Below are positions 9,895-34,166 of a stretch of DNA of 39,915 nucleotides, piece after piece. Below the pieces are notes generated by a model, which saw only the letters and a list, made by a program, of their open reading frames with translations, had not been told where the DNA came from and made no database searches. The stretch lies in contig JAJZKE010000004.1 of the NCBI GenBank assembly GCA_021809645.1, positions 1-39,915 on the forward strand. Reading direction: 5' to 3'. How positions within the stretch are numbered: position 1 is the stretch's first letter; every line of letters begins with the position of its first letter. This DNA is from a bacterium (GTDB lineage Bacteria > Patescibacteriota > Saccharimonadia > Saccharimonadales > UBA4665). Made by a program: the position numbers and the translations under genes.

Positions 9895-10668
9895 TCAAGC
9901 CTTTAATGCTCTTAAAGTTAATTCAGTACGTTTTTTAGCATAATCACAAAATTCACAATCTCCACCCATAGCTGCCTTACCAACTTTCGGTATATTACCC
10001 TCTAAACATAACTTGATTTTATTTAAAGTTTCTTCCATCCAAGAATCATCACCTTGATACTCAATTAATTTGGTTGTAAAAAGTAACTGGTCATTAAAAC
10101 CGTCAAGTTCCAAACGTCCATTAGTATATACAAAAAATGCTTTATTGCTAACGTTGAAACCGTTTTGTTTTAATAACCATTGGTAAATTTCCACTTGCCT
10201 TTTATAACTAATTTGCCAATCAGAATCAATCGATATCTCGCCGTTCTTTGCCGTAGCTTTATAGTCGACAACCATAAGTTCATCGTCTTCATTAACCCAA
10301 ATATCATCAACAGCACCAAATATAAATAAATTTGTAGGCTTATGAAGCGTACTGACCCCGACAAAGTTTTCTCGCCATCTATCCAAATCTTCGTGCCAAT
10401 AAGGAACAGCTTTTATATTGTTATCGACCATAATTGGATGTGGTTGAGCAGTTTGTCTATAGCTATCAAATTCTTTTTTTAGAAGTTCGTCTACGGCTTT
10501 ATTGAGATTAAATGGTGGACCTGAAGGTCTTTTTATTTTTAATCTAGCGTCTAACCAAAAACATCTTTGGCATTGTAAAAATAATTCAATTTTCGATCGA
10601 CTAATTTTATATGGTGCCTTTTGACCTGGAATATATGCACCTGCATTTCTATTTGTTGTTGTCATCAT
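9895..10668 (-). CDS. PD-(D/E)XK superfamily (RecB/Cas4-like) nuclease with four candidate Fe-S cysteines
   Basis: FGAVDDIW ... VVDYKAT (D...DxK), QxxxY-like 'QVEIYQWLL', CxxC near N-terminus (CQRC) and CxxC near C-terminus (CEFC). Confidence 0.78.
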   Translation of the reverse strand: MMTTTNRNAGAYIPGQKAPYKISRSKIELFLQCQRCFWLDARLKIKRPSGPPFNLNKAVDELLKKEFDSYRQTAQPHPIMVDNNIKAVPYWHEDLDRWRENFVGVSTLHKPTNLFIFGAVDDIWVNEDDELMVVDYKATAKNGEISIDSDWQISYKRQVEIYQWLLKQNGFNVSNKAFFVYTNGRLELDGFNDQLLFTTKLIEYQGDDSWMEETLNKIKLCLEGNIPKVGKAAMGGDCEFCDYAKKRTELTLRALKA

Positions 10669-27883: not shown

Positions 27884-30793
27884 TTAAGGATTATTTTTAT
27901 TTTCTTTTGATATCTTAATTTCTAAATCTTGGCCTTCAATCTTAACAATAGTTACGTAACTATATTCTTTTCTGCTGTTTAATGAAATTGCTAGCGTCTC
28001 TTTTATGATTTCATGAAGAAGATTTTCATTTTTGAAGGATGTTGTAATAAGTTTACTATCAGAATTAAGACCAAGGCTTATTCTATCGTTAACTTCAAGT
28101 CCTGCATCTTTTCTTGCTTGCTGAACATTTCTTATGATTTCTCTAGCTACGCCCTCCAATCTTAAATCATCTGTAATCTTAGTATCTAGCTTCACTAACG
28201 TTTTATCATTTGTTACATGATAATCTATACTTTTTACATTCAATTCTTCTTGAATGATCGACAATATATCATCATCCTTTTTTCTATTTGTTTTAATTAC
28301 AACCTTTGATAAAGGTTGCCTTAGTTTTAGTCCAATACTTGCTCTCTGACTCAAGCCCTCATTTATTACTTCCCTAGCCCAATCCATGGAATCAATGACT
28401 ATATTGTTAACATAACCCGGGTTAGGCCAATCTAGAAGATGTACTGATTCACCACCTATAAGATTTTGATATATTTCTTCAGCTAAGAATGGAATAAATG
28501 GGGCTGTAATTATTGATAGCTGTGTTAAAACATAATGGAGTGTCTTGTAGGCATTGTTTTTATCTTCATCGTTATCTGTTTTCCAGAATCGTTTTCGGCT
28601 TCTTCTGATATACCAATTGCTAGCATCATCCAAAAACTTAAAAATTGGTTTAGTAGCATTAGGTATATCGTATTTCTGCATATTTTCATCGATCGACTGA
28701 CCTAATTGATGAACTCGACTAACGATCCATTTATCTAAAATATTTGTAAGGTTATCGATCGGATCTTCTGGTAGTTCTCCCGGCTTCAATCCTGAATCCC
28801 AATCATCAACGTCAGCATATAATGTGAAGAAATCATACATATTCCAAATCATTGATAATTTTCGATATACATCAGAAACATCTTTATCTTGAAGAGAAAA
28901 ATCTTCGCCATTTAATAAAGGTGATGATAGGAATAAAAAGCGCAATGAATCTGCACTATATTGATCCATTAGCTCATTTGGGTCAGTATAATTACCATAA
29001 CTTTTACTCATCTTACGACCATCGTTACCTGAAATAGTACCGGTTACAATAACGTTGTTAAAAGCTCTATTATCAAAAAGTGCTACAGATACGCTATGTA
29101 GATAATAAAACCATGCTCTTACCTGACCGATATATTCTGCTACAAAATCACCAGGAAAATTACTTTCAAATTTATCTACATTTTCAAATGGATAATGATA
29201 CATAGCAAAAGGCATAGATCCTGATTCAAACCAACAATCCAAGACCTTGCCTATGTGTTTATATTTAATACCATCAATTTCAAATTCAATAGCGTCTATC
29301 CATGGCCGATGGTAATCTTCTAATCTAATACTGGATAAATCTTCAAGTTCCTGATATGATCCAACGACTATCACTTTTTCGTTGCCGTCTTTATCTTTTC
29401 CTTTCCAGACGGGCATTGCTGTTGCCCAAAAACGATCACGACTTATATTCCAGTCAGGTGCACTTTCTATAGTATTGGTAAACCTTCTATTCTTTATATG
29501 TTCTGGGAACCAATTTATATCTGAATTGTTATCAAGCATAGCTTGACGCTGATCATCGATGTTTAAAAACCAACTTGGATGAGCACGATATATTAATTTA
29601 GTGCCACATCTATGACAATGAGGATAGCTATGTCTATAGTAATGAATCCTCCAGACTTTACCTTCTTCTAAGAAAGTTTTAGCAATATCTTTATCAACAT
29701 CCCATACTTGCTGACCTTTCCATGGGCTATCAATTAAAAATCCACTGTCATCGATTACACTAACTACTGGAAAATCTTTGCTTTTAGCTAAAATATAGTC
29801 TTCTTCTCCATAGGCTGGAGCTTGAGATACTATCCCAGTACCTTCATCTAGAGTAACGAAATCTGCATTATGAATTTTATGAGCTTTTGGACCATAATCC
29901 TTAAAAATAGGTTCGTATGCTTTTCCGACTAATTCCTCTCCTTTGAAATCGCGAATTAACGTATACTCAATTTGTTGATTCTTTTCATTGATTAAAACAC
30001 TCTTTAACAATTTCTTAGCTATAATAAAATTACCATCACTAGTACTTACTTCGGAATATACTGCACTTTTATCGACTGCTAGGCCAGTATTTGCAAGTAA
30101 TGTCCATGGAACAGTGGTCCATACCAAAAGATAGCTTTCGGAATCTTTTAATTTAAACTTAGCATATACTGATGGGTCAGTTATATCTTTATATGAATTA
30201 TCCATAGCAACTTCTGCTTTCGATATAGGTGTTGCATCTCTTATACAATACATAAGTACTTTTTCACCTTCATATATCTTGCCTCTATCATAAATCTCTT
30301 TAAAAGCCCACCATACTGACTCCATATAGTCTTTATCCATGGTTTTATATGCACCCTGGAAATCTACCCATCTACCAATTCTATCTATAGTTACTTCCCA
30401 CTCATTACCCGTTTGTATCATATTGTCACGGCAAGCAGTTATATACTCCTCTAAGCTTATTTTTGTACCAATATCTCTTTTATCTTTTATACCTAGTTTT
30501 TGCTCCGTATACACTTCTGCCGGCAAGCCATGACAATCCCAGCCCCAAATTCTTTCAACCCTCTTCCCTTTCATCGTCCAATATCTTGGAACAGTATCTT
30601 TAACTATGCTTGACAGTAACGTACCTTGATGTGGAACGCCTGTAATAAAAGGAGGGCCATCATAAAATACATAAGAATTTTCTTTAGGCCTTTGTTCTAC
30701 AGATTTTTCAAATAATTTATTAGTCTTCCAATAGATAATTAGATCTTTTTCATAGTCATTTGGTAAACGTCTAGTTTTTTGCTTAAACTTCAT
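27884..30793 (-). CDS. ileS: Isoleucine--tRNA ligase (eukaryotic-like type)
   Basis: PPFITGVPHQGTLLSS (HIGH region), GWDCHGLPAE, VPWTLLANTGLAV editing domain, RKMSKSYGNY (KMSKS). Confidence 0.96.
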   Translation of the reverse strand: MKFKQKTRRLPNDYEKDLIIYWKTNKLFEKSVEQRPKENSYVFYDGPPFITGVPHQGTLLSSIVKDTVPRYWTMKGKRVERIWGWDCHGLPAEVYTEQKLGIKDKRDIGTKISLEEYITACRDNMIQTGNEWEVTIDRIGRWVDFQGAYKTMDKDYMESVWWAFKEIYDRGKIYEGEKVLMYCIRDATPISKAEVAMDNSYKDITDPSVYAKFKLKDSESYLLVWTTVPWTLLANTGLAVDKSAVYSEVSTSDGNFIIAKKLLKSVLINEKNQQIEYTLIRDFKGEELVGKAYEPIFKDYGPKAHKIHNADFVTLDEGTGIVSQAPAYGEEDYILAKSKDFPVVSVIDDSGFLIDSPWKGQQVWDVDKDIAKTFLEEGKVWRIHYYRHSYPHCHRCGTKLIYRAHPSWFLNIDDQRQAMLDNNSDINWFPEHIKNRRFTNTIESAPDWNISRDRFWATAMPVWKGKDKDGNEKVIVVGSYQELEDLSSIRLEDYHRPWIDAIEFEIDGIKYKHIGKVLDCWFESGSMPFAMYHYPFENVDKFESNFPGDFVAEYIGQVRAWFYYLHSVSVALFDNRAFNNVIVTGTISGNDGRKMSKSYGNYTDPNELMDQYSADSLRFLFLSSPLLNGEDFSLQDKDVSDVYRKLSMIWNMYDFFTLYADVDDWDSGLKPGELPEDPIDNLTNILDKWIVSRVHQLGQSIDENMQKYDIPNATKPIFKFLDDASNWYIRRSRKRFWKTDNDEDKNNAYKTLHYVLTQLSIITAPFIPFLAEEIYQNLIGGESVHLLDWPNPGYVNNIVIDSMDWAREVINEGLSQRASIGLKLRQPLSKVVIKTNRKKDDDILSIIQEELNVKSIDYHVTNDKTLVKLDTKITDDLRLEGVAREIIRNVQQARKDAGLEVNDRISLGLNSDSKLITTSFKNENLLHEIIKETLAISLNSRKEYSYVTIVKIEGQDLEIKISKENKNNP

Positions 30794-31013
30794 ATCTTTT
30801 TAACCCGCTTAAAATAACAAAGTCACCCTATTTTTTTGCTGGAGTCCATTTTAACGGACGTTACCATCCAGCTTCTAATTAGGATGACCTAAAAAGCTCT
30901 TGATTAGTTATATCGTTAACCAAACGGTAGGTTCTACTCAGTTAAAATCACCTTTCTTCCTACTTCCGTTTCTGTAAAATACAGAATTGCGACTGATTAT
31001 CGCTCATACGGAT
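30794..31013 (-). promoter_or_regulatory. Candidate T-box riboswitch leader of ileS (ultrashort Stem I / translational type suspected)
   Basis: Minus-strand GCTGGA[TGGTAAC]GTCC-GTTAAAAT-GGACTCCAGC (30838-30872): one-sided 7-nt bulge resembling T-box UGGNACC between two helices; upstream hairpin GCGA-TAATCAG-TCGC with AUC in its loop (30989-31003); intermediate stem CGGaagTAGG...GAGTAGAACCTACCG. Confidence 0.6.
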
Positions 31014-31020
31014 TTTCGAT

Positions 31021-31026
31021 ATTATA
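31021..31026 (-). promoter_or_regulatory. -10 element upstream of the ileS leader
   Basis: Perfect TATAAT on minus strand (ATTATA on plus) just 5' of the structured leader; -35 weak. Confidence 0.5.
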
Positions 31027-31052
31027 TCATATACATCACTTAATTAGCTAAT

Positions 31053-31313
31053 TTAAGAGATATATGACTTAACTTCGTCTATTAAAGGTATTGTTGATCC
31101 TAACCATAAATGTTGGACTACTCCATCATCTCGAAGAACCATTATTGCCGGATAGCTGGTGATGTCATAAAGAGAAGCAATAGATATTCCCTCTCTTGTA
31201 TCAATATTTAACGTCTCTACTTTAATTGAACCATCTTTTCTAAGATTATCTACAAATTCCTCAATAGATCTCCTGTGCTCAGAATTGAGCCTATATAACA
31301 CTAACACTTTCAT
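31053..31313 (-). CDS. Small thioredoxin-fold-like protein without CxxC
   Basis: MKVLVLYRLNSEHRRSIEEFV...VETLNIDTREGISIASLYDITSYPAIMVLRDDG (thioredoxin-like cis-Pro context YPA) with no cysteines. Confidence 0.6.
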   Translation of the reverse strand: MKVLVLYRLNSEHRRSIEEFVDNLRKDGSIKVETLNIDTREGISIASLYDITSYPAIMVLRDDGVVQHLWLGSTIPLIDEVKSYIS

Positions 31314-31367: not shown

Positions 31368-34166
31368 CTAGCTACAACCAGTAGTTGATCCACAAGAAGT
31401 ACAAACATAACAACTACCTGACCTTTGGGTCTGATTACCACAATTGTAACAAAGCGGTGCGGTACTATCTTGATGAGGTATTTTAGAAGAATTAATTGTT
31501 GATTTTGGTATCTCTAGTAACATAACTGTTTCTTTTTTAACTTCTTTTTCTTTTAAAGTTATATCACCACTCTGATCTTCTTCGATAACTAATTCGTTCT
31601 CTTCTTGATCTTTAATTAGGCTTAGTTGACTATCTGGCATATCATCTATAGACACTAATCCAAGTTCTAATTGATCATCAAAGCTCAGATAATCTAACGC
31701 TAATCTTCTCATTATATAATCAATGATCGAACTAGCAGTTCTGATATCAGGATCATCTGTTATGCCAGAAGGCGCAAAACTTGTTCCTCTCAAGGCTTTT
31801 ATATATCGTTTTAACGGTACTCCGTATTGCAAACCATTACTAACACTTATTGCAAAAGAATCAGTGAGACCAGACAGTGTTGATCCTTGTTTGCTTACAT
31901 TAACAAATAGCTCTCCGGGTGCTCCGTCCTCATATTCACCTACCGTAAAATATCCTTCCAAATCAGCTATTTGAAATTTATAAGTTCGACTGTTCCTAAC
32001 TTTGGGAAGAGGACGTCGTACTGCTCCTTTGATTATTATTTTATCTTCAGTAATTGGTTGTTCTTCGTTGTCTTTTTCATCACTGTCCTTTTTAGCCATA
32101 CTTAGAGGCTGAGCTACTTTACAGTTATCTCTATAAATAGCGATGGCCTTAAGACCCATTTTCCAGGCGCTGATATGTAATTTCTCAATATCTTCAACAG
32201 TTGCACTTTCCGGCATGTTAACTGTTTTACTTATAGCTCCAGATAGAAAAGGTTGTACAGCTGCCATCATCTTTACATGTCCCATGTAATCAATAGAGTT
32301 ATCACCCATTGAACAAGCAAAAACAGCCTCATCTTCTTTTTTCAAATAAGGAGCTCCAATAATTGTCTTTTCTACATCAATATATTTAATTATGGCTTTA
32401 ATTTCTTCTGTCTTATAGCCAAGTGCTTTGAGGGCTCTTGGAACGGTTTGGTTAACTATACTCATGGTGCCGCCACCAACTAATTTTTTTACTTTTACCA
32501 ACCCCAGATCAGGTTCAATCCCAGTAGTATCACAATCCATCATCAAGGCAATTGTTCCAGTCGGAGCTAATAAACTTGCTTGGCTATTTCTAACACCATA
32601 CAGTTCCCCTAGTTCTACGGCTTCATCCCAGGAACTAGCAGCTGCACTTAATAATTCTTCACTAACAAGACTAGCATCAATATTAGAGACTTCTTTACGA
32701 TGCATCCTTAATACTTTAAGCATTCCGTCTTTATCTTTGTTATATCCTGCAAATGGACCAACTTGTTTAGCAATTTTAGCGCTAGCGGCATATGCATGTC
32801 CGGTCATTAATGCAGTAATAGCTGCTGCTTGAGCTCTACCTTCATCACTATCATAAGGTAAACCTTGGGCCATTAATAAGGCACCCAGATTTGCATAACC
32901 TATACCCAATTCTCGATATGCCCTGGCATTCTGAGTAATCTTCTTAGTTGGATAAGAACTATAACCAACCAATATCTCCTGAGCCGTAAATACTAAGTCA
33001 ATAGTATGTTTAAAATCTTCAATAGCAAAACTAAAGTCATCATTCAAATATTTCAGCAAGTTGATTGACGCAAGATTACATGCTGAGTTATCTAAATGCA
33101 TGTACTCACTACATGGGTTACTCCCGTTAATCCGACCAGCGTTTGGTGTAGTATGCCAACGGTTAATAGTTGTATCAAATTGCATACCTGGATCAGCACA
33201 TTCCCAAGCTGCTTCCGAAAATTGTCTAAATAAATCTCTAGCCTTAACTGTTTTTACTGTTTTGCCAGTAGTAACAGCTTTTAAATCCCAGTCGCCGTTC
33301 GATTCTACCGCCCTCATGAAACTATCTGTAACCCTAACTGATATATTAGCGTTCTGATACTGTACACTGAAAGAATCCTTGCCATCCAAACTCATATCCC
33401 ATCCCATATTTTGAAGATCTCGTGCTTTCCTCTCTTCAATAGCCTTACTCCAGATAAAATCAGCAACATCAGGATGATCAACATTTAGAATAACCATCTT
33501 AGCAGCTCTACGAGTTTTGCCGCCACTTTTAATGGCCCCAGCCGAGGCATCAGCTCCACGCATAAAACTCAATGGTCCGCTAGCTGTTCCGGCGCTCTTA
33601 CCCAATGGCTCTACAGATGATCTGATAGGACTAAGATTAACACCAGAACCACTGCCGCCTTTGAAAATCATGCCTTCTTCAACATACCAATTAAGAATTG
33701 ATGGCATAGTATCTTCAACAGACAATATGAAACATGCACTTGCTTGCTGTGATCTTTCGGAAACACCTATGTTAAACCAAACTGGCGAGTTAAAAGCAGC
33801 TCTTTGGGTAGCTAATACATATTTAAGTTCCTCACGAAAATCTTCAGCATCACTCGCAGTTTCAAAGTATCCTTCTTGTTGGCCCTGTCGAGTAATCGTA
33901 TCCACTACTCGGTCTACTAACTGCTTTAATGAACGTTCTCGACTATCTAAGCCTGGAGTACCGCTAAAGTATTTTTGAGCCACAATATTTATTGCATTTT
34001 GCGACCATCCCTCTGGAAATTCTACATCTTTTTGTTCAAAAACAGGTTTGTTTGTTAGCGGATTCTCTATTATGGCGTCCCTTTTTACCCATTTCAATAA
34101 ATCGTAAGCTCGACTTTTTTTAGGGGTAAAAAGACGACCCACACCCTGATTGGTTGTTTGTCCCAT
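31368..34166 (-). CDS. nrdJ: Adenosylcobalamin-dependent (class II) ribonucleotide reductase
   Basis: FNSPVWFNIG, GGSGSGVNLSPIRSS, NPCSEYMHLDNSACNLASINLL, LLAPTGTIALMMDCDTTGIEP, C-terminal CYNCGNQTQRSGSCYVCTSCGSTTGCS. Confidence 0.95.
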   Translation of the reverse strand: MGQTTNQGVGRLFTPKKSRAYDLLKWVKRDAIIENPLTNKPVFEQKDVEFPEGWSQNAINIVAQKYFSGTPGLDSRERSLKQLVDRVVDTITRQGQQEGYFETASDAEDFREELKYVLATQRAAFNSPVWFNIGVSERSQQASACFILSVEDTMPSILNWYVEEGMIFKGGSGSGVNLSPIRSSVEPLGKSAGTASGPLSFMRGADASAGAIKSGGKTRRAAKMVILNVDHPDVADFIWSKAIEERKARDLQNMGWDMSLDGKDSFSVQYQNANISVRVTDSFMRAVESNGDWDLKAVTTGKTVKTVKARDLFRQFSEAAWECADPGMQFDTTINRWHTTPNAGRINGSNPCSEYMHLDNSACNLASINLLKYLNDDFSFAIEDFKHTIDLVFTAQEILVGYSSYPTKKITQNARAYRELGIGYANLGALLMAQGLPYDSDEGRAQAAAITALMTGHAYAASAKIAKQVGPFAGYNKDKDGMLKVLRMHRKEVSNIDASLVSEELLSAAASSWDEAVELGELYGVRNSQASLLAPTGTIALMMDCDTTGIEPDLGLVKVKKLVGGGTMSIVNQTVPRALKALGYKTEEIKAIIKYIDVEKTIIGAPYLKKEDEAVFACSMGDNSIDYMGHVKMMAAVQPFLSGAISKTVNMPESATVEDIEKLHISAWKMGLKAIAIYRDNCKVAQPLSMAKKDSDEKDNEEQPITEDKIIIKGAVRRPLPKVRNSRTYKFQIADLEGYFTVGEYEDGAPGELFVNVSKQGSTLSGLTDSFAISVSNGLQYGVPLKRYIKALRGTSFAPSGITDDPDIRTASSIIDYIMRRLALDYLSFDDQLELGLVSIDDMPDSQLSLIKDQEENELVIEEDQSGDITLKEKEVKKETVMLLEIPKSTINSSKIPHQDSTAPLCYNCGNQTQRSGSCYVCTSCGSTTGCS

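Follow-up and report, generated by a model that had tools for sequence, protein, structure and literature searches.

How ileS is regulated in a bacterium of the Saccharimonadales is the question raised by the minus-strand leader of this gene (30794-31013) in the window, as we call the whole stretch of 39,915 nucleotides that was analyzed, and for which a preliminary description had proposed a T-box. The regulated gene is an open reading frame of 969 amino acids (27884..30793, minus strand) that matches TIGR00392 at 787.5 bits, against a cut-off of 621. Its transcript is expected to start near 31014, judging from a probable extended -10 promoter, TGATATAAT (31021..31029, minus strand), whose assignment comes from reading the sequence alone because a scan upstream of the ileS leader returned no promoter consensus containing a -35 box. 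The same strand carries, just before the leader, an 86-aa thioredoxin-like open reading frame without a Pfam match (31053-31313), flanked by ileS on one side and by an apparent ribonucleotide reductase (31368-34166) on the other.

From its 5' end on the minus strand, the leader opens with an ultrashort Stem I, GCGA-UAAUCAG-UCGC (30989..31003), which displays an AUC (Ile) specifier at 30997-30995 in a 7-nt loop. Between Stems I and II lies an extra hairpin, UUCUGUA-UUU-UACAGAA (30970..30986), a perfect 7-bp helix that is absent from most relatives in the alignment of leaders and constitutes a lineage-specific insertion. Stem II, GUAGG/CCUAC (30927..30963), contains the S-turn strands AAGAA (30958-30954) and AGUAGAA (30938-30932), and is followed by a Stem IIA/B pseudoknot region with an F-box-like CGNNA (30906..30926). 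The purine string AAGAG (30897..30901), an instance of the RRRxG motif defined 5' of Stem III (PMC7583486), precedes Stem III itself, which has a UUAGG-UCAU-CCUAA core and then AA (30873..30896). The antiterminator (30838..30872) is built from helices A1, GCUGGA/UCCAGC, and A2, GUCC/GGAC, with the bulge UGGUAAC at 30866-30860. Compared with dinucleotide shuffles the window leader has a more stable fold, by 3.9 sd; it is a slightly degenerate copy, with its UGGUAAC bulge, a G-C for G-U at the base of A2, and an interrupted U-tract, UUUGUUAUUUU.

The comparison set comprised 80 Saccharibacterial ileS loci, and covariation was tested on a MAFFT alignment of 47 Saccharibacterial ileS leaders. An in-register pattern search recovered the antiterminator with its UGGN bulge, together with the AUC hairpin, in approximately 67 of the 80 leaders. 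Across the 47 aligned leaders, whose members are not independent within the clade and for which the slid-register and swap controls retain relatedness or composition, 90.5% of cells in the named ON structure are paired, versus 70.9% in shuffles and at most 47% in slid registers, and two-sided changes number 418 versus 138 in shuffles. Stem I is paired in 100% of cells with two-sided changes at 4/4 pairs, and Stem II in 95.7% (outer helix) and 90.1% (inner helix) with two-sided changes at 8/8 pairs, around an S-turn in which UAGA is invariant. The pseudoknot is partly supported, the IIA helix being paired in 95.0% of cells and IIB in 56.2% on a MAFFT alignment that misregisters that loop. The RRRxG purine string is present in 64/67 leaders, the flanks of Stem III are conserved as AAGNG/AA, and Stem III also carries compensatory changes, with 88.7% pairing in a register test versus 70.5% (maximum 75.4%) when strands were swapped between genomes. 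Helices A1 and A2 are 98.6% and 96.1% paired, with compensatory changes at 4/6 and 5/5 pairs, respectively. The antiterminator bulge reads UGGUACC in 58/67 leaders and UGGUAAC, as in the window, in 4/67; at the base of A2, where a G-U pair acts in T-boxes as the steric sensor of charging, GU is the commonest pair (22/47), and GC, which the window has, UA and AU also occur. Two leaders (L026 and L042) have long GC-rich hairpin insertions inside Stem III, of the GCAAAACC...GGUUUUGU type. The antiterminator topology, the AUC hairpin as an ultrashort Stem I and the S-turn-like Stem II with AGUA/GAA sequences, all of which had been pointed out in the window by eye, are thus upheld by the alignment, in which the helices covary and UGGU and AUC are conserved among related leaders. 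A competing CAUCC/GGAUG pairing that had been suggested to hide the UGGU is present in the window, but is not conserved in the alignment as inspected by eye.

The identity of the tRNA is predicted from the specifier and the bulge. The loop conforms to NNAUCNN in Saccharibacterial ileS leaders wherever Stem I could be located, and AUC is the codon read by a GAU anticodon. Among the tRNA matches examined in the window's own 91%-complete assembly none was a tRNA-Ile(GAU), probably due to an assembly gap, and the tRNA sequence was therefore taken from relatives in the same order, where 9/9 tRNA-Ile(GAU) genes end in ACCA, complementary to UGGU. The pairing proposed earlier between UGGU and the tRNA-Ile end is consistent with these genes, and the proposed isoleucine identity agrees with the TIGR00392 assignment of ileS, the AUC specifier, the ACCA ends and, in relatives, a specifier that matches the gene.

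This match extends to 60 CPR leaders found outside the Saccharimonadales, in which nearly all of the downstream genes are synthetases (SerS was left out of the agreement). The IleS leaders in this group have AUC in 29/29 cases, two of them by a shifted register, and in the other CPR classes the specifier tracks the gene, with ValS mostly preceded by GUC, AspS by GAC or AAC, ThrS by ACC and TyrS by UAC. Being independent, this agreement between specifier and synthetase argues more strongly than any other result that these RNAs read tRNAs. Three AspS-type genes (L153, L156, and L173) lie behind T-boxes with AAC (Asn) rather than GAC, as expected if the AspRS were non-discriminating and charged tRNA-Asn as well. 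A non-synthetase gene, by look of the carbohydrate-kinase or NAD(P)H-hydrate dehydratase type, comes after a T-box with a GUC (Val) loop at two further loci (L131 and L175), where valS may lie further downstream. Approximately two dozen Saccharibacterial loci likewise have other genes between the T-box and ileS (including L006, L018, L022, L026, L031, L034, L045, L050, L051, L059, L073, and L074); these encode a CYTH-domain protein (confirmed at L034 by PF01928), a cupin-like protein at L022 (a weak match), proteins that by eye resemble GNAT or glycosylase families, or unknown small open reading frames, and may be co-regulated by tRNA-Ile charging.

A search of the window with Rfam at the gathering cut-off returned no match, and RF00230, a check that had been proposed at the outset, does match the window, but at 19.7 bits, far below its cut-off of 93; above that cut-off, RF00230 matched 0/61 related genomes. 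Such a score is what one would cite in favor of a chance resemblance, that is, a structured leader that does not sense tRNA. However, RF00230 also scores Actinobacterial ileS T-box leaders below its cut-off (40.4 and 31.9 bits), so that the sub-threshold score reflects a limit of the Rfam model, and a chance resemblance is highly improbable given that the tRNA-contacting elements are conserved and covarying and that the specifier fits the synthetase for several amino acids. A covariance model built from the 47-leader alignment matches 77/80 Saccharibacterial ileS loci (the window at 127 bits), 114/147 Saccharimonadales genomes and 144/384 genomes sampled phylum-wide, some with two to five copies. 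A second match of this model in the window (10104-10275, E 0.37) falls inside a coding gene and was taken as noise. Collectively, the sequence comparisons indicate that the window ileS leader is almost certainly a tRNA-sensing T-box, and that a T-box of this kind is almost certainly common to most Saccharibacteria and many other CPR bacteria.

The output of this T-box was indicated by a second structure. RNAalifold, run unguided, joined the segments on either side of the antiterminator into a helix. When bases were counted outward from A1 and position -n was compared with +n in register (n = 7 to 16), 81.5% were paired, versus 61% (maximum 69% in 500 swaps) when the downstream strands were exchanged among genomes and no more than 59% in slid registers; the resulting enclosing helix is 82.4% paired, with 108 two-sided changes versus 33 in shuffles. 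The Stem III region supplies its 5' arm, and the antiterminator stays intact inside. In the window, this putative OFF-state terminator spans 30811..30890 on the minus strand, with AGGUCAUCCUA (30890-30880) pairing UAGGGUGACUU (30830-30820), and the downstream strand repeats the sequence of the Stem III 5' strand. As both Stem III and the enclosing helix are supported, the single 3' strand of Stem III has two partners, and pairing of the shared positions with both partners reaches 77.3%, versus 59% (maximum 66%) when only the downstream strand was shuffled.

Folding in steps gives a similar picture. Up to the end of A1, Stem III and A1 both form in 65/70 Saccharibacterial leaders; with the next 24 nt added, at least 7 enclosing pairs form in 65/70 and A1 is kept in 64/70, with a mean gain of 11.5 kcal/mol, and the fold of the window goes from -19.9 to -28.9 kcal/mol once the downstream strand is added. 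This gain suggests that the default state is OFF, with Stem III given up and the antiterminator retained. The enclosing arrangement is preferred over the canonical one in 64/69 classifiable Saccharibacterial leaders, and in the other CPR classes a crude energy rule assigns 23 leaders as enclosing, 16 as canonical and 15 as unclear. Six leaders (L023, L051, L129, L132, L144, and L148) have no distinct Stem III, and the purine-string segment itself (AAGUCCAC and similar) is the apparent 5' arm of their terminator; they appear to represent a more extreme form of the enclosing switch.

A single fold can accommodate both the antiterminator and the enclosing helix, and hence the antiterminator itself does not enforce mutual exclusion. 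This would be in keeping with an enclosing helix that terminates constitutively or serves as a processing hairpin, with the T-box decoupled from it or modulating RNA stability only. We consider such an arrangement improbable, however, as the downstream strand and the Stem III 5' strand both covary with the same 3' strand, as a switch requires, and a constitutive terminator ahead of an essential gene would be costly.

Whether the strand swap in Stem III acts on transcription or on translation can be judged from what lies beyond the enclosing helix. A U-tract follows it in most Saccharibacterial leaders, namely the 69 classifiable ones; a handful lack one by the rule used, including the window, where the tract at 30821-30811 (minus strand) is U-rich but interrupted. 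The preliminary description had noted that no U-tract follows the antiterminator-like hairpin and had favored translational control; the former is correct for that hairpin alone, but a U-rich tract does follow the larger enclosing helix, and the latter is not supported by the position of the switch. In all 47 leaders with a recognizable Shine-Dalgarno sequence (the window has no clear one), it is never inside the enclosing helix and lies a median of 10 nt downstream. No consistent pairing partner of the Shine-Dalgarno was found among the leader segments, and its region is approximately 56% unpaired in folds, so that some minor translational effect may exist; making the downstream strand unavailable raises the unpaired fraction from 0.56 to 0.62. 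Sequestration of the Shine-Dalgarno was accordingly tried as a mechanism and set aside, as neither its position nor its accessibility supported it. Three properties of the helix, namely its terminal U-tract, its position ahead of the Shine-Dalgarno and its competition with Stem III, make transcriptional attenuation by the Stem III strand swap the likely switch, as read from these sequences.

Two Actinobacterial ileS leaders (Nonomuraea and Tsukamurella) and one Firmicute leader (Sutcliffiella), taken from public records, served as controls, with the GC-rich Actinobacterial ones classed by direct folding because duplex energies are spurious there. The Saccharibacterial sensor resembles Class III T-boxes, known from the ileS genes of Nocardia farcinica and Mycobacterium (Actinobacteria), in its ultrashort Stem I without a tRNA-elbow module, apical AUC, Stem II S-turn, Stem III with RRRxG/AA flanks, UGGN antiterminator or antisequestrator, and ileS target. 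Both the Nonomuraea and the Tsukamurella leader are matched by our covariance model (E ~1e-8), and T-boxes with ultrashort Stem I are mostly translational (PMC10482949). These similarities, together with the imperfect U-tract of the window and the slight opening of the Shine-Dalgarno when the downstream strand is withheld, would favor a translational T-box like that of Actinobacterial ileS, in which a sequestrator helix gates ribosome access to the ileS start. Such an output is nevertheless unlikely, given that the whole of the switching helix precedes the Shine-Dalgarno in 47/47 scorable leaders, that the Shine-Dalgarno is without a consistent partner, and that U-tracts follow the helix across the clade. 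In the Actinobacterial leaders, by comparison, a helix joins the 3' strand of A1 to the Shine-Dalgarno region (in Nonomuraea, CUUCACGC/GCGUGGAG), whereas the output helix here swaps with Stem III and ends in a U-tract; moreover, the specifier loop is 7 nt here and 5 or 6 nt in Class III, a class in which Stem II is required.

The element is also similar to Class I T-boxes of the Bacillus tyrS type, with which it shares the logic of attenuation, an S-turn, the UGGNACC bulge and a terminator with a U-tract; these T-boxes, which RF00230 describes, have a long Stem I in place of the ultrashort one found here. In described T-boxes the 3' strands of A1/A2 become the 5' strand of the terminator (PMC7583486), and the Sutcliffiella ileS control (146 bits with RF00230) has such a textbook terminator, GUCCCUG/CAGGGAC, formed from the A1/A2 3' strand. 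Here, by contrast, the terminator 5' strand is Stem III, with the antiterminator folded inside, and the OFF switch by strand swap appears different from that of described T-boxes. Canonical T-boxes of other CPR bacteria (e.g., L171, L174, and L178) have the same sensor, are found by the same model and have synthetase genes downstream, but, unlike the Saccharibacterial enclosing form, use the 3' strand of A1, together with sequence downstream, for their terminator.

We therefore propose, with good confidence, that the ileS leader is an ultrashort-Stem-I T-box acting by transcriptional attenuation through the Stem III swap; that the RNA binds tRNA, senses its charging and terminates transcription, and in which direction it responds, is inferred. 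Uncharged tRNA-Ile(GAU) would base-pair at two points, through its anticodon at the AUC of the Stem I loop, with the S-turn of Stem II as a brace, and through its ACCA end at the UGGU of the antiterminator bulge. Such pairing would lock the discriminator unit (the purine string, Stem III and A1/A2), and with Stem III held closed RNA polymerase would continue into ileS. When tRNA-Ile is charged, the discriminator unit would be left unlocked, and the strand just after the antiterminator could invade Stem III and pair with its 3' strand and loop; the long helix so formed would surround the antiterminator, itself still folded, and would end in the U-tract and stop transcription. As the terminator encloses rather than destroys the antiterminator, locking by the tRNA would have to act through Stem III. 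The discriminator needs Stem III and its purine flanks in order to bind the tRNA end (PMC7583486).

The preliminary description knew of no such element in Saccharibacteria, and our literature searches (Saccharibacteria, CPR, Patescibacteria, and Parcubacteria) likewise retrieved no paper on T-boxes in CPR bacteria or on the Stem III-swap topology; subscription papers were outside the scope of these searches, so that priority is not proven. A 2008 survey placed T-boxes in few phyla (PMC2494555), and in TBDB the ultrashort-type model was run only in Actinobacteria, besides re-testing truncated matches of the standard model (PMC7778990); both the Rfam model and this Actinobacteria-only search would miss the elements described here. 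CPR bacteria probably harbor a large uncatalogued branch of ultrashort-Stem-I T-boxes serving several synthetases, within which Saccharibacteria would trade Stem III for an intrinsic terminator that encloses an intact antiterminator. If so, a transcriptional output would be added to ultrashort-Stem-I T-boxes, which have been described as mostly translational, and the charging decision would be readable through Stem III, making the discriminator role of this stem directly testable by strand-swap mutants. Control by tRNA charging would then be central to regulation in a host-dependent radiation of reduced genomes whose regulation is poorly known.
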